From an uncultured Lachnospiraceae bacterium (GTDB taxonomy: Bacteria; Bacillota_A; Clostridia; Lachnospirales; Lachnospiraceae): DNA of 9,445 nt. Shown here in pieces: positions 1 through 9,445 of this stretch (within the stretch, counting starts at the first letter, position 1; every line of letters begins with the position of its first letter). The notes under the pieces are model-generated. The model had not been told where the DNA came from. It saw only the letters and a list, made by a program, of their open reading frames with translations, and did no database searches. A program made the position numbers and the translations under genes. The stretch lies in the NCBI GenBank assembly GCA_905200565.1, contig CAJKKX010000058.1:1-9445 (forward strand), written 5' to 3'.

Positions 1-767
1 TTGATCTGAACCCAGATAGTCCCGTCCCATGCTTTTGTTACACTTTTAATCTCTACTACTGTCCCTTTTTTCAGCTTCGCTTTGTTCCCGGCGATGCGCT
101 TGCACTTCTTTTTTGCCGATGCAGAAAGCTCCGTGTATTTGACATATCCTGCCTGCTGGAACTTCGTAGACACGCCGTCACGGATGGCGATATCCTGTTT
201 CAGCTTCACTCTCATTCCGGCTTTGAGTTCCGGTTTCTTTTCGGCGTTATAATACTCCTCCGCCCGCTTTTTGAACTCCGTCCACGTCCAGCTTGTCCGG
301 TACTTGTTGTTATGCACATAAGGAGCAGGACAGGTCTTATTTACAATGTCGTAATGTCTGAGCACATTTCCGGACGGAATGCCAAGTTCCCGCCTGAGTC
401 TGGCTACCAGCCATGCACATGCTTCCTGTGTCTCTGTGGTGAAATACCATCTCTTATCTTCTGCACTGGTGGAATCCCCATCACAGCCGCAGCACATTTC
501 GATACTGACCGTATTGCTGTTTCTGGCGTATGGGTGTTTCTGCCTGTAGTAGCCTGCCGTCCCTACTGCCCACGGCACCGCATCCAGGCTGCAACGCTGG
601 TAAATGGTTCCATCCCGGAAGATGTAGAAGTGTGCGCCGCATCCATCCGGGGCCAGGTCATAGCCCTGCCCGGTCGTCCCCAGATAGTGGACAGCAATGT
701 ATTTCTTCTGGTTGCCCCAGCACGGGACATTTCTGTTGCTGATTACATTTGTGATTTTATGTGTCAT
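1..767 (-). CDS. N-acetylmuramoyl-L-alanine amidase (phage endolysin), 3' end missing
   Basis: This is probably the phage endolysin, which cuts the amide bond between MurNAc and L-Ala of peptidoglycan after the holin opens the membrane. The frame is open from an ATG at 767 to the window edge, giving 255 visible codons. Residues about 20-150 match Amidase_2 (PF01510, T7 lysozyme/PGRP fold). Likely zinc ligands are H27 in 'IAVHYLG', H138 in 'RHYDIV' and C146 in 'KTCPAP'; E90 in 'VSIEMC' is a candidate catalytic or structural acid. 'GAHFYIFRDG' (44-53) is the usual core strand. From about residue 180 a lysine-rich region ends in 'GTVVEIKSVTKAWDGTIW', which resembles a bacterial SH3 wall-binding domain cut by the window edge. 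An AAAGGAG SD lies just upstream, directly after a hairpin at 784-799. It is last in the visible lysis cassette. There is no signal peptide, so export should depend on the holin. The family call is secure; the C-terminal domain is less so. Confidence 0.93.
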   Translation of the reverse strand, partial: MTHKITNVISNRNVPCWGNQKKYIAVHYLGTTGQGYDLAPDGCGAHFYIFRDGTIYQRCSLDAVPWAVGTAGYYRQKHPYARNSNTVSIEMCCGCDGDSTSAEDKRWYFTTETQEACAWLVARLRRELGIPSGNVLRHYDIVNKTCPAPYVHNNKYRTSWTWTEFKKRAEEYYNAEKKPELKAGMRVKLKQDIAIRDGVSTKFQQAGYVKYTELSASAKKKCKRIAGNKAKLKKGTVVEIKSVTKAWDGTIWVQI

Positions 768-834: not shown

Positions 835-999
835 CTAATCCGGCGCCTTTACAGGGAAAGCCATTTCTCCTCTAACAAGCTCCACTCTATCCTGCTGGAT
901 AATTACTTTGTCATACGGGCATCCATGTTTCTGTAACCACTCTACCGCCGGTCTCATTGTTTTTTCAAAATCTTTTAAATCTTCTTCTGAATATTTCAA
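835..999 (-). CDS. Small hypothetical phage protein (54 aa), TTG start
   Basis: I do not recognise a named function for this short, acidic, soluble protein. It begins 'MKYSEEDLKDFEKT', runs through an amphipathic helix ('AVEWLQKHGCPYDKVI'), and ends with a short predicted beta segment ('RVELVRGEMAFPVKAPD'). No membrane segment or signal peptide is visible. I place the start at the TTG at 999 because a strong SD (GGAGGAA at 1006-1012 on the minus strand) sits six bases before it; the frame extends to another TTG at 1020, but that start would place this SD inside the gene. Small proteins of this general shape (helix, 'VEWL', then a short strand) are familiar in Gram-positive gut phages, but I cannot name a family with confidence. 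It lies between the Tad2-type gene and the amidase, so it is probably co-transcribed with lysis and accessory functions. Confidence 0.72.
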   Translation of the reverse strand: MKYSEEDLKDFEKTMRPAVEWLQKHGCPYDKVIIQQDRVELVRGEMAFPVKAPD

Positions 1000-1005
1000 T
1001 TTATC

Positions 1006-1012
1006 TTCCTCC
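1006..1012 (-). promoter_or_regulatory. Ribosome binding site that sets the TTG start of the 54-aa gene
   Basis: GGAGGAA on the minus strand lies 6 bases upstream of the TTG at 999. This spacing favours the TTG at 999 over the in-frame TTG at 1020, for which no comparable site is visible. Confidence 0.65.
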
Positions 1013-1045
1013 AATCTCAAACTTCGCTATCGGTGTATAAGTAGT

Positions 1046-1546
1046 TTACTCCACGATTTCCCAATCGTCAGCCAGGCAGTCACGGATTGACGGAACCCAC
1101 ATAGCATGAGAGCCGTCCACGGTGCTGATCTGCAAATACGGCTCACACTTGAACAAATCACCCTCATTCATGCCCCACGCTTCGGCAGTCTGCTTGTTAC
1201 ACGAAATCCCCTGCGGGTAACCTTTCTGATAAACTACGGACAACCCCTTGCCGTTCCAGCCTTTACGTGTCATTCTTTTTCCCTGCTTCAAAAGCCGTAA
1301 CGCTTCGCCGAATCTGACTGTATGGATGTTCAAATCAATGTCGCACTCGCCGACAACTTCCCATTCATCAGAAGCGATATTTGTAAGTGTGTAAAACACG
1401 TCCTCTGTTTCTCTGATGTCAAGCACCCTGCCGTCCTTGCAGTACATTTTTACGGTATCGCCGTCTTTCTCCCAATATCCTGCCCATGATGGTAACTTTA
1501 CTTTATGTCCTGTCTTTAATGCTTCTATTGCATTTGCAAAATTCAT
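1046..1546 (-). CDS. Tandem two-domain DUF2829 / Thoeris anti-defence Tad2-type protein
   Basis: This 166-aa protein contains two head-to-tail DUF2829-like units. The C-terminal unit (about 77-166) is canonical for DUF2829, the family of phage Tad2: 'FGEALRLLKQGK', then 'TRKGWNGKG' (93-101), 'VDGS' and W150 near 'WVPS', and a 'DCLADDWEIVE' ending. The N-terminal unit (about 1-66) has the same plan, 'FANAIEALKTGHKV', W21/W25, 'KDGRVLDIRETEDV' and 'IASDEWEVV', but lacks the GWNGKG motif. Known Tad2 proteins are single-domain sponges of about 90 residues that assemble into oligomers and sequester gcADPR-type signals from Thoeris; some also bind cyclic dinucleotides from CBASS. Acting as a cytoplasmic sponge is therefore the likely role, but ligand specificity is inference. 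The start has a clear AGGAGGG SD (1557-1563). The gene sits between the holin and the orphan/amidase genes, in a position typical of late-operon accessory genes. The symbol is left blank because the two-domain form may not be functionally equivalent to Tad2. Confidence 0.85.
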   Translation of the reverse strand: MNFANAIEALKTGHKVKLPSWAGYWEKDGDTVKMYCKDGRVLDIRETEDVFYTLTNIASDEWEVVGECDIDLNIHTVRFGEALRLLKQGKRMTRKGWNGKGLSVVYQKGYPQGISCNKQTAEAWGMNEGDLFKCEPYLQISTVDGSHAMWVPSIRDCLADDWEIVE

Positions 1547-1588
1547 GATTTTATTTCCCTCCTATTTCAAATCTTGATATTCATATAC

Positions 1589-1664: not shown

Positions 1665-2147
1665 CTACTCGCCTTCTCTGTCTTTCTCTTCAATATTCCC
1701 TGCCTGCTGCTCCCCCATCGACTCCACCTGCGATTTGATGTTCTTAATCAGTGGTTCAAGAAATGCAGGGATTGGAACCCCCATATCCTTGATATTCTCA
1801 AGAATACTGATGATCTCATTGCAGATAATCCATAGTGCTACAATACACGCCACCAGGAAGGTGAACGGAAGCTCTACCCCAACTGTGGCCGAAGCATACA
1901 GCAGGAGCTGGTCAATGATGGCTCCTACAACAACTAAGAGCCACATACACACTTTCTTTCGGATGCCCCGAAGCCCTTTATAAGATGTAATTTCCTGTCC
2001 CCGTCGGTCCGATGCCATAAGACCTGTGATATAGTCAATCACGTTGCAGGACACCATAAGCACGACAGGCAATGCGAGAATCCCAAGAAGGGACGTCAAA
2101 AAACCGAATACCGCTGAAAAAACGGCCTTGATATGATTTGCATTCAT
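1665..2147 (-). CDS. Phage holin, TcdE/Phage_holin_4_1 family
   Basis: This is a small membrane protein that probably assembles lethal lesions in the cytoplasmic membrane, letting the amidase reach the cell wall. At 160 aa it fits the Phage_holin_4_1 (PF05105, toxin secretion/phage lysis holin) family. Hydrophobic segments lie at about residues 10-45, 66-88 and 94-115. Family-like features are 'IDYITGL' (37-43), the loop 'SYKGLRGIRKK' (55-65), 'NEIISILENI' (110-119) and the following 'MGVPIPAFLEPLI'. The C-terminus (about 140-160) is hydrophilic and acidic. The ATG at 2147 has an AGGAA SD six bases upstream, and a small CCGG-GAAA-CCGG hairpin separates it from the DUF6275 stop codon. Its placement upstream of the amidase gene supports the lysis role. 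No separate antiholin is evident. Confidence 0.9.
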   Translation of the reverse strand: MNANHIKAVFSAVFGFLTSLLGILALPVVLMVSCNVIDYITGLMASDRRGQEITSYKGLRGIRKKVCMWLLVVVGAIIDQLLLYASATVGVELPFTFLVACIVALWIICNEIISILENIKDMGVPIPAFLEPLIKNIKSQVESMGEQQAGNIEEKDREGE

Positions 2148-2180: not shown

Positions 2181-2450
2181 TTATTCCTCTGTATGGCAAG
2201 CATTTGTAAGCTTGCCGTACACATCCTCGTACAACTCCTGTTTATCACCGTTATAAGTGTATTCTGCATAGATACCATCACCACTGATCGTAGTTGATGC
2301 AAGACACTTGTAATTCTGGAGAGTTTTGCAAGACCAGACGATAAATATATTACTCAAGTCAATTTCTACTTCTGGCCTATTTTTGTGATACCACTCAACG
2401 AGCTTTCTTTTGCACACGCTCTCATAATGAGCCATTCCTGTAATAATCAT
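2181..2450 (-). CDS. DUF6275 family phage protein
   Basis: This 89-aa soluble protein of unknown function has the features I associate with the DUF6275 family of Firmicutes phages: 'IFIVWSCKTLQNYKCL' in the middle, followed by 'EYTYNGDKQELYEDVYGK' near the C-terminus. No catalytic motif, membrane segment or signal peptide is visible. I chose the ATG at 2450 because GAAAGGA at 2460-2466 is correctly spaced from it. The more upstream in-frame ATG at 2474 lies inside a hairpin and has no SD. It is the first gene after the terminator at 2486-2513, so its transcription needs read-through or a promoter I cannot identify. Members are commonly seen beside holin genes, which matches the layout here, but no role in lysis has been shown to my knowledge. 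Confidence 0.78.
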   Translation of the reverse strand: MIITGMAHYESVCKRKLVEWYHKNRPEVEIDLSNIFIVWSCKTLQNYKCLASTTISGDGIYAEYTYNGDKQELYEDVYGKLTNACHTEE

Positions 2451-2459
2451 ATTTTCTTT

Positions 2460-2466
2460 TCCTTTC
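2460..2466 (-). promoter_or_regulatory. Ribosome binding site that sets the DUF6275 start
   Basis: GAAAGGA on the minus strand lies 9 bases upstream of the ATG at 2450. It follows directly after a hairpin at 2468-2482, so the SD stays exposed while the upstream in-frame ATG (2474) is buried in the stem-loop. Confidence 0.55.
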
Positions 2467-2467
2467 C

Positions 2468-2482
2468 CCGGCATTTCGCCGG
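2468..2482 (-). promoter_or_regulatory. Hairpin directly upstream of the DUF6275 SD
   Basis: A perfect 5-bp stem, CCGGC / GCCGG, with loop GAAAT on the minus strand, extendable by wobble pairs. It abuts the GAAAGGA SD. It lies only a few bases downstream of the T-run of the terminator at 2486-2513, so this gap holds two consecutive hairpins, like the gaps at 6135-6181 and 1589-1633. Confidence 0.45.
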
Positions 2483-2582: not shown

Positions 2583-3347
2583 TTATGTATTTCTCACAAG
2601 CCCCTCCACGGACAGCACCCGCAGGCTGGCAAAGCCCCAGCCTGCCTTGTTGCTCACATAAATGCCTACTCTGTTGTTTGTGAAATCACACATTACACGC
2701 ATCACTCCATTATAGGCTGCGCTGGCATAGCCGCTTGCGCATATCTCATTATGGCTCCTATTGAAGATGCAATAGCCCCGCATGCCGTCCCCGACTTCTA
2801 TCCACATCCGGACTTCCTTCCAGTCTGAAAGCCCGGATATTGTCGTGTAAGCCCACGTCGTGAGCGCATCAGCATATATGCCCGTCGCGGAAGTGTACAG
2901 GGATACGGGACTGGTAAGCGTGTCTGTCAAATACCCTGTCAAATCCCCCACGACGTACCAGTAGCTTCCGCTGTAGACCAATTCCAGTACCGTCCCCGTT
3001 TTTATGCCGTCCTTTGGAATGTAAGTACTTTTATAGTAAATGTATTTCGCCCCGGTGCTGTTCACATTCAGCGTTGGGTGGTTCGCTGTGTTCGCATTCG
3101 CAAAGCGCACCATCACCCTCGCCCCTGTCACCAGTGAAAAACCGGTGATGCTGCACGTTTTCGCCGCCGTGCTCCCTGATGTACTGCACGCCGCATAATG
3201 GCTGATGTTTGCCGTGCCGTTAAAAGCAACGCCGTCGATCGCCCTTGCGGTCGTAAGTTTATCCGCCGTTCCGAGTTTGTAGTCTACGTAGGATTTCATA
3301 TAACTCCAGACCCTCCGCAGGCCGACTTCATCCAGATACTTCGCCAT
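2583..3347 (-). CDS. Putative tail fibre / receptor-binding-type protein (254 aa)
   Basis: This probably forms part of the host-contacting tail tip. Residues 1-26 ('YLDEVGLRRVWSYMKSYVD') resemble the N-terminus of the adjacent 210-aa protein and may anchor both to the baseplate. Residues about 28-48 carry a fibre-type motif ('KLTTARAIDGVAFNGTANI'). Residues about 50-135 form a Gly/Thr/Asn-rich beta domain containing 'LNVNSTGAKYIYY' and ending in 'YSGSYWYVVGDL'. The C-terminal 110 residues are rich in aromatic and Gly residues and contain scattered cysteines; these could form the receptor-binding head, but I recognise no enzyme or lectin family. The ATG at 3347 has an AAGGGGTGG SD overlapping the stop of the upstream gene, showing tight coupling. 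It is the last structural gene before the terminator. The fibre assignment is good; binding specificity is unknown. Confidence 0.75.
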   Translation of the reverse strand: MAKYLDEVGLRRVWSYMKSYVDYKLGTADKLTTARAIDGVAFNGTANISHYAACSTSGSTAAKTCSITGFSLVTGARVMVRFANANTANHPTLNVNSTGAKYIYYKSTYIPKDGIKTGTVLELVYSGSYWYVVGDLTGYLTDTLTSPVSLYTSATGIYADALTTWAYTTISGLSDWKEVRMWIEVGDGMRGYCIFNRSHNEICASGYASAAYNGVMRVMCDFTNNRVGIYVSNKAGWGFASLRVLSVEGLVRNT

Positions 3348-3359
3348 GTTTCCACCCCT

Positions 3360-3992
3360 TTACACGCAGATACTGTCAATGTCCGCATTCGTCATCGCTT
3401 CCACGGAAAACATACCTCCAAGCGAATCCCACTTCTCACCGTCCCAGGCGACATTTGTCCCCGCCGCCCCGTAAGTGGAAGCTGCTTCAATATTGTAGAC
3501 GTCCCCTTTTTCCTGTCCGCTGGACGGCAGGTCTGATGAGGTTCCTACTGTCCCTTTGTACTTATATACGCCCGTGATGTCGGTTTTCAGGGCGTATTTT
3601 GATGCTTCCTGGAAAGCGTCGAGCTTTATTTTGTCCGCCGCGGACATCGCTCCATCATTTGACTGCGTAGCCGTGTCTGCACTGATTACCACTTCATTAT
3701 CTCCCATTGCGTACACTTGCACGGCATTATTATACATCCCTCGCAGGATCAGAGTGGCTTCCGGCGCAGCGGCTTCCAGTACAGCGCTTCCTATCCCCGT
3801 CCCCAGTTGTATACGTGCGTACGCCGCCTGGTTTTTCTGCGCCCCGGTCTCTATCCCGGCCAGCTTATTTTTTTCCGCTGTCGTATAGTCATTCGTGCTC
3901 AGCCCTTTGCCTGTCTCCTTTGGCACGAACTTTGATTTGATCTTCTCCCAGAAATGGGATACTCCGTTGCTGTCTAAATATGTGTTTGCCAT
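3360..3992 (-). CDS. Putative tail fibre / baseplate protein (210 aa)
   Basis: This is likely a trimeric fibre or baseplate accessory protein. The N-terminus 'YLDSNGVSHFWEKIKSKF' parallels that of the neighbouring 254-aa protein. Residues 34-48 ('NDYTTAEKNKLAGIE') and 112-126 ('NDGAMSAADKIKLDA') are two copies of a motif common in Gram-positive phage fibres, where such segments mark boundaries of repeated units. Residues about 142-193 ('YKYKGTVGTSSDLP', 'GDVYNI', 'VAWDGEKWDSLGG') match a module frequent in phage tail proteins. The last residues, 'MTNADIDSICV', resemble the end of the upstream Tal-type protein. I chose the ATG at 3992 because AGGAGG at 4001-4006 is well placed; the longer in-frame ATG at 4016 overlaps the upstream gene and has no matching SD. 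No enzymatic residues are evident. Confidence 0.78.
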   Translation of the reverse strand: MANTYLDSNGVSHFWEKIKSKFVPKETGKGLSTNDYTTAEKNKLAGIETGAQKNQAAYARIQLGTGIGSAVLEAAAPEATLILRGMYNNAVQVYAMGDNEVVISADTATQSNDGAMSAADKIKLDAFQEASKYALKTDITGVYKYKGTVGTSSDLPSSGQEKGDVYNIEAASTYGAAGTNVAWDGEKWDSLGGMFSVEAMTNADIDSICV

Positions 3993-4000
3993 TCTTTTTT

Positions 4001-4006
4001 CCTCCT
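4001..4006 (-). promoter_or_regulatory. Ribosome binding site that sets the 210-aa fibre gene start
   Basis: AGGAGG on the minus strand directly follows the TAG stop (4009-4007) of the Tal-type gene, 8 bases before the ATG at 3992. This favours 3992 over the upstream ATG at 4016 and suggests translational coupling between the two genes. Confidence 0.65.
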
Positions 4007-5143
4007 CTATTTGCATATATCATCTATTTCCAGATTTGTGATTGCCCCTGTATAGTAGATTTCCAGCCCTCCCACCTGCTGCGCCGTTAGCCCCTCTACT
4101 TTGCTTCCTATGATAAATTTCCCATTTGACGTGTTCCCCACGCTCTCAGCGGCGGCCATGAGCTTTTTCTGCATGTCGGAAAAGCTGGTGCTTCGGTTTG
4201 CGAGCTGCACCGTGTTTTTCTCCGGGTGGTCGGGATAGCGTGTGATGCTGACGATCCGCTCCCTGGCCTTTACTTCCAAATCCGGCTCAATGACGTCCGC
4301 TTCATCCCCCAGACCGAAACGGAAGTCCTCATATCCGTCCTGGATATTTGCTGCGTCCAGCACCTGCGCCGTGTAAGTGGTCTTTGGGACGGACAGCTCT
4401 TCGAGCTTCTTCTGCGCCGCACGTTTTAGCCCTTCGGCATCCGTATAATTGGTATCCTCCCAGATGATTCCCCGGATGATACCGGAATACTTTGTGTTGT
4501 CCAGGTAATCCTTATTTCCGTTTACTGCTCCAATCCGTATCCCGTCTTTCCCGATCGGATAGATGCGCGTATAGAAATCGTGCGTATCCGTTTTGACCTC
4601 CAGGGATTTCAGGTTAAACCCTTTTATAAAGCGTGCCGGACTGTCCCGGTTCCCTGCCCTGCTATACAAGCGCACAGTCTTTGATGCGGTGAGGAAAGCC
4701 ATCTCTACCCAGAAGATTTCTGCAATCCTTTCCAGTACCTTCATACTGTCCGTATTATTTTCCGTGATGTTCCGTGTCTCCAGATTGTCCGCTGAAAAGT
4801 TCCTGTACGTCCATCCGGTTCCCTCCAGAGCCGCCCCGACACACGCTTCCAGTGTCATCCCCGATGCGGCGAAATTCTCAATGCAATGTCCTGACAATGC
4901 GTCCGTGTCCTGTGCGGCCACGACAGAGCCGTACCGCCCCTTGACAGGGGCTTCTTTTACGCGGTAACGCTCCCCCTCGTATGTAATCAGTTCCTCACAG
5001 AAGATGCGCCCGTCCTCCAGCGGATACGTGAAGCTAAGCTGTCTTTTTATCATGCCGTTATCCAGCTTTTCCTCTACTTTGAAGTCTTTCCTCTGGAATG
5101 CAAAGCGTTTGAAAATGTTTCCTGTCTGATCATAAACCTTCAT
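4007..5143 (-). CDS. Tail-associated (Tal) hub protein, prophage tail endopeptidase-like N-domain
   Basis: This 378-aa protein fits the Tal/gp44-like hub that closes the siphovirus tail tube beneath Dit (Prophage_tail, PF06605, or phage minor structural protein family). Supporting segments are an N-terminal strand region with 'FTYPLEDGR' (38-46), 'YTRIYPIGKDGIRI' (191-204), 'TDAEGLKRAAQKKLEEL' (234-250), and the 'RERIVSITRYPDHPEKNTVQL' region (about 294-314), all typical of this fold. The C-terminus, after about residue 325, is a short helix and linker ending 'GAITNLEIDDICK'. It is the size of the hub domain alone: no lysozyme, NlpC/P60 or long fibre domain is fused, unlike many longer Tal proteins, so host recognition is probably left to the two fibre genes that follow. 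The start has a GAAGGAGGG SD overlapping the TAG stop of the Dit gene. I am confident of the hub role but less so of the exact subfamily. Confidence 0.82.
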   Translation of the reverse strand: MKVYDQTGNIFKRFAFQRKDFKVEEKLDNGMIKRQLSFTYPLEDGRIFCEELITYEGERYRVKEAPVKGRYGSVVAAQDTDALSGHCIENFAASGMTLEACVGAALEGTGWTYRNFSADNLETRNITENNTDSMKVLERIAEIFWVEMAFLTASKTVRLYSRAGNRDSPARFIKGFNLKSLEVKTDTHDFYTRIYPIGKDGIRIGAVNGNKDYLDNTKYSGIIRGIIWEDTNYTDAEGLKRAAQKKLEELSVPKTTYTAQVLDAANIQDGYEDFRFGLGDEADVIEPDLEVKARERIVSITRYPDHPEKNTVQLANRSTSFSDMQKKLMAAAESVGNTSNGKFIIGSKVEGLTAQQVGGLEIYYTGAITNLEIDDICK

Positions 5144-6194: not shown

Positions 6195-9100
6195 CTAAAA
6201 CCGCATCGTCTGTCTCGCCAGCTCATCCCCCATCGCCGGGGCGACCGCACCGACAAACTCCCCGGTATCCAGCACGACTTTCATGTACCGGATTTCCTCA
6301 CGCATTGCCCGCATTTCCGCCATCAATCCGCCGAGCATTTCCGCCACGCCGGAGTTATTGACCGTGACATTCGGCGTCTGCGGGACTGGTGCGGCGGTCA
6401 GCTTATTCAGGGCGTGAATCCCTGCGCTGGTGTTCAGGTTCGCTGTATATTCCGATAAAGCGTCCTGCTGCCGTCTGGTCTGTTCTGCTGCCTGTTCCAG
6501 CATCGTGCCTACCATGTCTGCCCCGGCGTCCGCCGCTTCTTTCGTCCCGTCCTTGATTCCCTGCGCCACGCCAGCCGGAATCTGTTTCCCTACCACGTCC
6601 CGGAACCTTCTGGACGGGGAAGCGATGCCCGCTTCTTTCTTTATGGCCTCCTCCAGCTCCTCTACAAAGGATTTTGCGCCTTTCTTGATCTCCAGCTTGT
6701 TTGACAGCCCCTTTAAGATTCCCGAAAGCGTGTCCTTTCCTATGGCCTTTCCCTTTGCCGGGAGGTCTCCTATGCCGTCCGCTATGGTGGACTGGATTCC
6801 TTTCAGCTCTGTCTTTGTCTTTTTTGATTCTGCCTGCTTCTTAAATCCCTGGATGAGCTTGGCCGTTGCGTCCTCCCCAAGCGTTGTGGCCTTCTTTGCA
6901 AGTTCCTGTAATGGTTCTGAAATGGCGGCGGAAAGCTCCGCAGATGCTTTTTGGTATTCCGTCTTATATGCGTCAAGCTGTTTCTGCGCCTCCTCCGTGA
7001 TTTCCTTTATCCTCTTTTCCGTTTCCGCCCGGAGGGCTTCTGTCTCTTTCGCCGCCTGCGCCTCTGCCAGCCTGTCCTTTTCCTCGTACAGTCTGTTCAT
7101 GGCCTTTAGCTCTTCCTCTGTCGCTGTATTCAGGGAGAGGATCGTTGCCGCCGCTGCCGGTCCCATTTCCCGCAGCTCTTCCAGGAAAGAATCATTCAGG
7201 ATATGTTTCCCCTCCAGCTCTTCCAACTGTTCCATCCAGAGGGCGTACCCGGTCACCTGTGACTGCATGTTGGCCAGAATGACTTCCGGCGCGTCCGCCT
7301 CGCTCTTGAACCCGTCAAACAGCCCGAAAGCGGATTTGATTGCCGATTTTCTCTCTTCGAAAGCGTTCTCGTATTCATCCGTGAGGTCTTTGATGTCGTC
7401 TTTGAGCTTATCGTTTACTTCCTGGCATTTTTCATAATATTCGTCCTCCAGTGCTTTCCGCTGCTCGTTATAGCTCTCCTGCGCTTCGAAGATCTTCTTT
7501 TCGACCTCCAGCTTCTGGGACACCGTAAGGCCGCCGCTCTTCTTCACCTGCTGCCAGTATTCTATTTCCGCTTTGGCTGAGACTTTGTAAAACGATTTAT
7601 ACAGGTCAAGCCCGGAGCCTGAAACGCCGTATTCCACCGTGTCGCCGCTGTTTTTTATTTCTTTTTTGATGGCCTTGTTGATTTCCTTGATCTTTTTTGC
7701 CGCATCCGCATAGGTCTGTGTGCCTTTCTTGACGCTCTTTTTTAGCTGCTGCCAGACGTATTTCTGCTGCCGGAGCGTTATATTGTCTACCGCCGCCTTA
7801 TTTTCAACGTATTTCTTTGCCGCTTTGGTAAGGTCGCTGTAATAAGCGTCTGCGCTCTTTTTTACCGTCTGCTTTCCTTTTTTGGTGTATTCCGACACGC
7901 CAAAGGACTTTTTAATTTTTTGCCTGACTTCCTTCATGAACTTGTCGTTCACTGCCGCATTCTTCAGGGCTTCTTTGTAAGACGCCGAATCTTTTTTTAC
8001 GACCTTCGCCAGCTCTTTCCAGAGTTTCTTTTCCTGCTCGATCGCGACGTTATGGCTTTTTAAGTATCTTGCAATCCATTCTTCCGACGTCTTATAAACT
8101 TCGGACGCCATATTTTTCGCTGCCTGCACGGGGTATCCTTTACTGTTCTTTATCCCGATTCCCAGACCCTTTGCAACGTAATCACCCAGCTTTTTGAACG
8201 CCCCGCTTGGAGAATGGATGTCAAGCTCTTCCTGCGTCCCTTGCAACGCGCTTCTGGCCAGTCCTACGGAAGCGGACACGACGTCCTTTTCTCCGTCCAG
8301 GATTCCGAGCGCAAGTCCCTGGGACATGTAAGCGCCTACCTGGTTTCTCCATACACGGGACGGGCTTCGTGACTCTGTGGTTTTGTTTGCCCTTCTCTTT
8401 GCCTCCGTCAGAACTCTCTCCACCGCCCTGTAGACCAGGTTGGAATTGCTGTGCATCCCTGCCGCCACGCCCGCCATCATGTTTTCTCCTACCTCCCGGA
8501 ACTGCATGTAGTGGCTGCCTGCCGCCTCCGCCGCCTGGTCCATAACGGCGTCTGACTTGCTGACGACTTCTGATTTCGCCTCTTCGGTTCCGGCTCCTAC
8601 GGCTTTTGTATTTTTCTTTCCGCTCTCTTTGAACTCCTTTTCTGATTTCCCCTGTTCTTTCAGTATCATGTCCTGGAGCTTTGCGACTGCACGCACGGCT
8701 TCTTCGCCGCCGTTTAAGATTCCATTCCGGATATCTTCCGGGATCTCGATTCCCACTTCCCCGGCAAGCTCCGTCAGGAAGTCAAGCTGTGCCGCCATAC
8801 TCCCTTTCATCTGGGCGATCGCCTCTTCAATAGATACCTCCCCGGATGCGATCTTATCTGCGAGTCCTTCCGGGATCTCTGCGCCGAACTGCTTCGCCGC
8901 CTCTACCGTCTGGAGAAAAGCATCTTTTATCTCATCCGAGATCATCTGCCCGCCGTCTGCTGCTGCTGACGCCGCGCCCTCAAGGGATTTCTCCAGGTTG
9001 GAATAGTCAAGCTCTGTAGAATTTGACATCTCGCCCATAGCGGTTTTAAACAGGGACTGGAGATTTGCAAGATTTTCTGCATAGGTTTCCCTGTCAGACA

Positions 9101-9445
9101 GTGCCCCCGCCCATTGGTCTGCCAGCCTTTTCAGTTCTTCCCCGCCTTCGTTGTTCAGGTTATCTACTAACTGCTGGACGAAGTTCGCCGCCTGGTCCGG
9201 CCCCATTTCCAGAAGCTCATCGAAAAACTGTGTGTTCATGTTCCCGCCGATCTCCCCGGCCAGCGTCCGCATGTTCTCTTCCCAGTTTTCCATCGCTTTC
9301 CTTCGCCCTTCAAGGTTGTCGCTCAGGGTATCTAAATCGTACGTTTCCCCGCCGTTGAATTTTTCGAACATGTTGACGTCCATGCTCTGTTCGATGGAGG
9401 ATTTGACTTCCTCGAATTTTCCGCGCAGGGATTCCAGGGCTTTCT
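6195..9445 (-). CDS. Tail tape measure protein, 5' end missing
   Basis: The tape measure protein spans the tail tube lumen during assembly and sets tail length. The frame is open to the window edge, with 1,082 visible codons ending at 6195. The ATG at 9383 is internal, because coding sequence ('GKFEEVKSSIEQS') continues upstream in the same frame. The sequence is mostly helical and rich in Ala, Lys and Glu. It carries three SPS-type modules ('SPSRVWRNQVGAYMSQGL' at about 8355, 'SPSGAFKKLGDYVAKGLGI' at about 8202, 'SPSRRFRDVVGKQIPAGVA' at about 6609), a hallmark of Gram-positive phage tape measure proteins. A lysine-rich central region (about 7480-8060) contains repeated 'W-x-x-(L/V)-x-K' units. 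Long charged stretches at about 7030-7480 and 6830-7050 are probable coiled coils. No transmembrane segment is visible here; it may lie in the missing N-terminal part. Gene order before Dit and Tal supports the call. Confidence 0.93.
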   Translation of the reverse strand, partial: KALESLRGKFEEVKSSIEQSMDVNMFEKFNGGETYDLDTLSDNLEGRRKAMENWEENMRTLAGEIGGNMNTQFFDELLEMGPDQAANFVQQLVDNLNNEGGEELKRLADQWAGALSDRETYAENLANLQSLFKTAMGEMSNSTELDYSNLEKSLEGAASAAADGGQMISDEIKDAFLQTVEAAKQFGAEIPEGLADKIASGEVSIEEAIAQMKGSMAAQLDFLTELAGEVGIEIPEDIRNGILNGGEEAVRAVAKLQDMILKEQGKSEKEFKESGKKNTKAVGAGTEEAKSEVVSKSDAVMDQAAEAAGSHYMQFREVGENMMAGVAAGMHSNSNLVYRAVERVLTEAKRRANKTTESRSPSRVWRNQVGAYMSQGLALGILDGEKDVVSASVGLARSALQGTQEELDIHSPSGAFKKLGDYVAKGLGIGIKNSKGYPVQAAKNMASEVYKTSEEWIARYLKSHNVAIEQEKKLWKELAKVVKKDSASYKEALKNAAVNDKFMKEVRQKIKKSFGVSEYTKKGKQTVKKSADAYYSDLTKAAKKYVENKAAVDNITLRQQKYVWQQLKKSVKKGTQTYADAAKKIKEINKAIKKEIKNSGDTVEYGVSGSGLDLYKSFYKVSAKAEIEYWQQVKKSGGLTVSQKLEVEKKIFEAQESYNEQRKALEDEYYEKCQEVNDKLKDDIKDLTDEYENAFEERKSAIKSAFGLFDGFKSEADAPEVILANMQSQVTGYALWMEQLEELEGKHILNDSFLEELREMGPAAAATILSLNTATEEELKAMNRLYEEKDRLAEAQAAKETEALRAETEKRIKEITEEAQKQLDAYKTEYQKASAELSAAISEPLQELAKKATTLGEDATAKLIQGFKKQAESKKTKTELKGIQSTIADGIGDLPAKGKAIGKDTLSGILKGLSNKLEIKKGAKSFVEELEEAIKKEAGIASPSRRFRDVVGKQIPAGVAQGIKDGTKEAADAGADMVGTMLEQAAEQTRRQQDALSEYTANLNTSAGIHALNKLTAAPVPQTPNVTVNNSGVAEMLGGLMAEMRAMREEIRYMKVVLDTGEFVGAVAPAMGDELARQTMRF
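6600..8370 (-). repeat. Three dispersed SPS(R/G) protein repeats within the tape measure gene
   Basis: The codons for SPSR, SPSG and SPSR begin near 8366, 8213 and 6620 on the minus strand. Each is followed by an aromatic residue or hydrophobic pair and then a G...(Q/K)G(L/I/V)..GI block, as in 'MSQGLALGI', 'VAKGLGIGI' and 'PAGVAQGI'. They are divergent at the DNA level, so they are old protein-level repeats and not a recent tandem duplication. This type of module is characteristic of tape measure proteins. Confidence 0.7.

Follow-up and report, generated by a model that had tools for sequence, protein, structure and literature searches.

A phage gene joining a compact Tad2-like unit to a canonical Tad2 domain, with a putative role as a signal sponge

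Can one phage polypeptide carry two Tad2-fold units, and what might such a protein do for the phage? The question is raised by a gene for a protein of 166 amino acids in a stretch of 9,445 nucleotides from an uncultured Lachnospiraceae bacterium (assembly GCA_905200565.1, contig CAJKKX010000058.1), a stretch that is called the window here at its full length. An earlier note, made from the letters of this DNA, had read the gene as two DUF2829/Tad2 units fused head to tail. We find that the fusion is real and recurrent, and that the two units are not alike; a role as a sponge for an immune signal is putative.

Two unlike Tad2-fold units in one protein

The motifs that the earlier note had quoted are all present in the two halves of the open reading frame. 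The C half holds FGEALRLLKQGK (residues 79-90), RKGWNGKG (94-101), DG (144-145), WVPS (150-153) and LADDWEIVE (158-166), and the N half holds FANAIEALKTGHKV (3-16), the pair W21/W25, KDG (37-39) and ASDEWEVV (58-65). The Pfam family Tad2-like (PF11195, curated cutoff of 25 bits) matches the whole protein in two stretches with 98.3 bits and the C half alone with 82.6 bits. Among solved proteins, a PDB search with the C half returned ModTad2 (2e-18), SPO1 Tad2 (3e-10) and AcrIIA7 (8e-10). Compared with solved Tad2 structures, the predicted models of both halves have the Tad2 fold, as had been expected for the N half. The N-unit model consists of a helix (residues 3-11), three strands (24-28, 31-35 and 41-43) and a second helix (50-57), and the C-unit model has the same order plus added strands and a helix at about residues 108-135, an insertion that is kept among the fused relatives and missing from the N unit in both alignment and model.

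The repeat is hardly visible by pairwise alignment, since BLASTP of the single N and C halves gave only E 0.043 over 13 residues. A profile-profile comparison of N and C units that included proteins without an N unit reached 96.7% (score 51.9) with a local match of 23 columns, compared with a best value of 20.3% (score 21.7) among 200 column-shuffled controls; a forced global alignment gave 96.3% over 59 columns, and hhalign of halves taken only from fused proteins gave 90.9% over 23 columns. The reading as two Tad2-fold units placed head to tail is supported by the fold comparison of the N half alone, by the profile comparison and by stand-alone relatives. The WxPS motif and the beta2-beta5 insertion of solved Tad2 proteins are absent from the N half in sequence and model. 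For this reason we call the N half Tad2-like rather than Tad2, and because the halves are not equivalent, we describe the protein as one canonical Tad2 joined to one compact, insertion-less Tad2-like unit. Judged by sequence, the N unit belongs to a Tad2-like subfamily of its own, in which W21, G23, W25, G39, T53 and W62 are invariant and Y24 and I44 nearly so in an alignment of 57 rows that we chose.

The nearest solved relative of the C half is ModTad2, the Tad2 of a Myroides odoratus prophage (PDB 9eib and 8v3e), which was solved with hisADPR. It differs from the protein studied here in being a single domain of 88-89 residues with another insertion sequence and without an N unit; the C-unit insertion of our protein is a few residues longer and is conserved in its relatives. 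SPO1 Tad2 (gp34.65; PDB 8sme, 8smf and 8smg), a tetrameric gcADPR sponge, has a fold like that of both halves and shares WVPS and DWxIV with the C half, but it is a single-domain homotetramer (PMC12043709). The fold of HgmTad2/AcrIIA7 (PDB 8kbi-8kbm) and SptTad2 (8wjd) is likewise common to both halves. Solved with cGG in 8kbk and 8wjd, these proteins differ in being single domains of 101-104 residues with another insertion, whereas the N unit has none. In chain length the C unit resembles ModTad2 and SPO1 Tad2 more than it does HgmTad2 and SptTad2, which bind cyclic dinucleotides. The view of Tad2 proteins as single-domain oligomers agrees with the solved structures, all of them single-domain, and with the homotetramers described in PMC12043709. 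The closest stand-alone counterparts of the N unit that we compared, P0140 from Phascolarctobacterium faecium and P0196 from Clostridium perfringens, are 65-68 amino acids long, carry the name 'Thoeris anti-defense Tad2 family protein' and are 60% and 52% identical to it, respectively, and neither is fused to a canonical Tad2.

Recurrence and origin of the fusion

With the whole protein as query, 3200 relatives were retrieved at an E value of 1e-3 or lower, and in 115 of the best 120 of these at least 94% of the query was covered; the close relatives lie in viral contigs and clostridial genomes. The PHROG family phrog_1048, which has neither name nor function, spans residues 1-166 and hence both halves with its profile positions 31-195 of 211; it treats the two-unit architecture as one family, and we saw no difference between it and our protein. 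Viral proteins of 150-270 amino acids labelled Tad2-like, known to us by name and length only, were returned by a BFVD search. The architecture is already implicit in databases. No description of a tandem Tad2 was found in the accessible parts of PMC12043709, PMC13299392, PMC12948488, PMC11722364 and PMC13232231, a set outside which lie the primary papers on Tad2 and a preprint from 2025 on the diversity of sponges (Hadary et al.), in which such fusions may already be treated.

An assembly artefact or frame join is ruled out by the repetition of the architecture in many contigs and by fusions whose C half has diverged in the cultured phages DO134P1 (Dorea) and phiRg507T2_3 (Ruminococcus gnavus), whose fused proteins are 38-40% identical to ours over the whole length. 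When 208 unique proteins from 328 loci, each carrying at least one of the two units, were sorted by script, the N unit was present in 117 and was followed in 81 of these by a second Tad2-like half, counts that are biased by the queries. The 81 comprise 18 of type A (as in the window), 55 of type B (diverged C half), 5 with a further N-terminal piece and 3 with another tail that were assigned by their ending and by eye; the reading frames run from the first start codon, and N-terminal extras are possibly overcalled. The N unit also exists as an entire protein of about 66 amino acids. Searching with 22 N halves gave 332 relatives, and 83 of the 120 matches listed have 85 amino acids or fewer, although this search could return short proteins only and some of these matches are cut ends of fused genes. 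An N unit is present in 7 of 299 genomes from one family, the family to which G006, the source genome of a Blautia locus, belongs.

In a prophage of Halalkalibacterium ligniniphilum the two units are separate genes (N of 76 and C of 90 amino acids) that are separated by 5 bases, keep the order of the fusion and follow a minor capsid gene. This pair accounts for two of the nine neighbouring-gene rows in the 328-locus set; the others pair an N unit with a Tad2 gene (L116 and L266), place a weak or third-type unit next to C or N (L158 and L325) or consist of two other Tad2-like units (L031, L184 and L186).

A recent internal duplication was rejected on sequence identity. Within the protein the two halves share 23% identity, compared with a median of 48% between the N half and 18 N units that stand alone and of 68% between the C half and 37 stand-alone C units; the cross medians are 29-31%. 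Each half is closer to stand-alone units of its own kind than the halves are to each other, so the fusion joined two diverged lineages. In a tree of 95 N units (67 columns), fused and stand-alone labels are interleaved, and the starred branches force at least five changes for type A fusions, four for type B and seven for stand-alone units. Most forks of this tree are unresolved, its bootstrap is not settled and two long-branch rows, including that of the split N gene, meet in it, and we take it for nothing further than more than one apparent joining or splitting event. The ratio of nonsynonymous to synonymous substitution rates (dN/dS) ranged from 0.06 to 0.34 in N (11 of 19 fused relatives with usable dS) and from 0.01 to 0.13 in C (8 of 19). 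The N unit was less conserved than the C unit in 17 of the 19, with the order reversed in L051 and L053.

A putative sponge and its alternatives

Beyond the gene, its two predicted folds, the family membership of the C half and the recurrent fusion, which were computed directly, we infer a function: the gene probably encodes a phage counter-defence sponge with a Tad2 C domain and a compact N partner, most likely a signal sponge of the anti-Thoeris type. The C domain would sequester an ADP-ribose-type immune signal (the gcADPR class or His-ADPR), a ligand proposed because ModTad2, as the nearest solved relative, is reported to do so. The N domain would serve as its partner, a compact unit of Tad2 fold whose subfamily is separate and insertion-less. 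The fusion would lock N and C in a 1:1 ratio, and two such chains could then build a Tad2-like assembly of unlike subunits. In Tad2, paired protomers make the gcADPR pocket from loops beta1-beta2 and beta3-beta4, strand beta4, loop beta4-alpha3 and alpha3, and the cyclic-dinucleotide site is part of the beta2-beta5 insertion (PMC12043709). By that description the C unit retains the motif residues of the gcADPR site; the N unit has the elements of this site with other residues (the N of WNG is lacking, as is WxPS, and the last helix is longer) and nothing of the cyclic-dinucleotide site. SPO1 Tad2 does not bind 3'3'-cGAMP (Acb4 paper, PMC11722364). Within the sponge reading, we lean slightly away from an N unit that forms or shares a ligand pocket, leaving the rest to a mainly architectural role.

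The fusion recurs in phages and prophages of clostridia, bacteria in which ThsB-type TIR domains also occur (76 of the 299 genomes mentioned above). ThsB1 recognises the major head protein (PMC12043709), and expression of our gene among the late genes would therefore fit a defence triggered by late proteins. A natural fusion of a canonical Tad2 with a compact insertion-less unit would show how phages evolve the specificity and stoichiometry of sponges, and the stand-alone units of about 66 amino acids are cheap, directly testable minimal candidates.

Several observations weigh against this picture. The sequence cannot name the ligand. The N half alone scores 21.2 bits against PF11195 (E 4.3e-4), below the cutoff, and by Foldseek alone the N unit found nothing in the PDB at E 0.001 or better (best 3.5e-3). 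Two other N-bearing proteins that were scanned are also below the cutoff (17.1 bits for the N gene of L205 and 14.4 bits for L059), but two stand-alone proteins of the subfamily pass it (P0140 with 34.1 and P0196 with 29.3 bits), and for that reason the match appears to exceed chance. The placement of the halves relative to each other is uncertain in the model, as the full-length single chain has a predicted template modelling score (pTM) of 0.70. N-C pairing is not obligatory, since many of the 208 proteins have just an N unit (25) or just a C unit (47). Among 11 viral loci with relatives of the split N gene, a canonical C gene adjoins only in L318, which is the H. ligniniphilum prophage itself; in 8 of the 11 no C gene stands beside the N gene, with at least 267 bases following, L325 has a weak Tad2-like gene upstream of the N gene and in L328 the contig stops inside it. 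Finally, carriers of the N unit, which are few, and TIR domains show no visible co-occurrence (3 of 7 carriers compared with 76 of 299 overall), and many of the TIR matches lie in frames of about 1000 amino acids that are not necessarily Thoeris.

Of the alternatives, we give appreciable though minority weight to an N unit that is an assembly module only, replacing part of the Tad2 tetramer and altering its size or stability while the C unit does all the binding. The lack of WxPS and of the insertion, the lower conservation of N than of C in most fused relatives and the occurrence of N with different C types would all suit such a module; a pure helper would not explain why stand-alone N proteins without a detectable adjoining C gene are frequent. 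A further possibility, more tentative, is that the compact N subfamily is a separate, minimal signal-binding class of about 66 amino acids that phages join, as fusions or neighbour genes, to various canonical Tad2 domains and so turn into sponges for several signals; our protein would then have two unlike pockets or one composite N/C pocket, unlike any solved Tad2. In a bolder form of our main reading, which we consider rather unlikely, the sponge would be bispecific, with an N pocket that binds another signal than the C pocket, and one chain would defeat two signals. The N unit seems useful without the C unit because the subfamily keeps its own set of conserved residues (in the 57 chosen rows) and occurs alone, and fusions link it to no fewer than two C types; its conservation may be structural, however, and we know of no ligand for any N unit. 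The insertion that bears the cyclic-dinucleotide site in Tad2 is also missing from it (PMC12043709). That the protein is no signal sponge at all seems improbable, whether it is taken as a Cas9 inhibitor, since PDB entries name a Tad2 homologue AcrIIA7 or inhibitor of type II CRISPR-Cas but the C half is nearest to ModTad2, with AcrIIA7 about level with SPO1 Tad2, or as a lysis regulator, since holin and endolysin genes bracket the fused gene in the window, in the R. gnavus phage and in L010 but its position varies: a Mu F-like head gene and a scaffold gene flank it in the Dorea phage, and a minor capsid gene precedes the split pair.

Genomic setting and related architectures

The window consists of phage late genes, every one on the minus strand (Table 1). 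No near DNA match to it was found among 50,697 phage records, no NCBIfam model matched the fused protein and PADLOC called nothing for its gene.

Table 1. Features of the fused gene and of its surroundings in the window
Feature	Position	Strand	Basis or remark
Fused Tad2-like/Tad2 gene, 166 amino acids	1046..1546	-	Open reading frame, Pfam, PHROG, protein search
N unit, residues 1-66, compact Tad2-like domain	1349..1546	-	Model, fold and profile comparison
Linker, residues 67-74	1325..1348	-	Boundaries set by us from the model; length varies in alignment
C unit, residues 75-166, canonical Tad2 domain	1049..1324	-	Pfam, PDB search, fold comparison
C-unit insertion, about residues 108-135, YQKGYPxGI..NKQTAEAWGMNEGDLF	1142..1225	-	Alignment and model
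AGGAGG-like ribosome-binding site, about 11 nucleotides before ATG	1558..1563	-	By reading the sequence
Holin gene upstream of the fused gene	1665..2147	-	Pfam Phage_holin_4_1
DUF6275 gene	2181..2474	-	Within 1 kb upstream of the fused gene
Open reading frame of 61 amino acids between fused gene and endolysin	835..1020	-	phrog_4621, function not annotated
Endolysin gene downstream of the fused gene	3..767, runs off window	-	Amidase_2
Two open reading frames, weak tail-fibre PHROG matches	2583..3347, 3360..4016	-	
Prophage_tail gene	4007..5143	-	
Open reading frame of 1062 amino acids, tape-measure size	6195..9383	-	No Pfam match

A DUF6275 homologue lies within 1 kb of the unit in 15 of 55 N-unit loci and in 0 of 71 C-only loci, a count that is uncorrected for phage relatedness, takes loci from different queries and drops those with less than 1.5 kb on either side. 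Examples besides the window are L062, L072, L090, L101 and L106; none of 14 type A fused loci has the association, and our literature search found no paper naming this family, which we regard as a candidate counter-defence partner.

Tad2-like units were also seen in other company. A Tad2 C unit stands behind a DUF4406-like domain in six unique proteins by a motif rule (L013, L014, L015, L016, L208 and L217), three of which were scanned with Pfam for DUF4406: L016 passes the cutoff with 23.2 bits, L014 fails with 18.7 bits and L217 has no match. By the same kind of rule, 29 unique proteins, L018, L021, L148, L149 and L155-L157 among them, have Tad2 behind a unit of about 65 amino acids with IGTKxIxAEPM...SWSP, and in L148, the one scanned, this part has no Pfam match. 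A triple open reading frame of 234 amino acids (L103:3496-4200) has N-like, N and C units and three Pfam Tad2-like stretches. In L118:3770-4519 an HTH_3 (helix-turn-helix, 38 bits) precedes an N unit and a type B C unit, and in L083:3679-4206 an N unit follows a Prp cysteine protease domain. A further Tad2-like type occurs as second half or adjoining gene in L100, L112, L186 and L325, and in the first three of these it carries GMRLPxW...PDEHSKMTAPYLYVESRFGRVPW.
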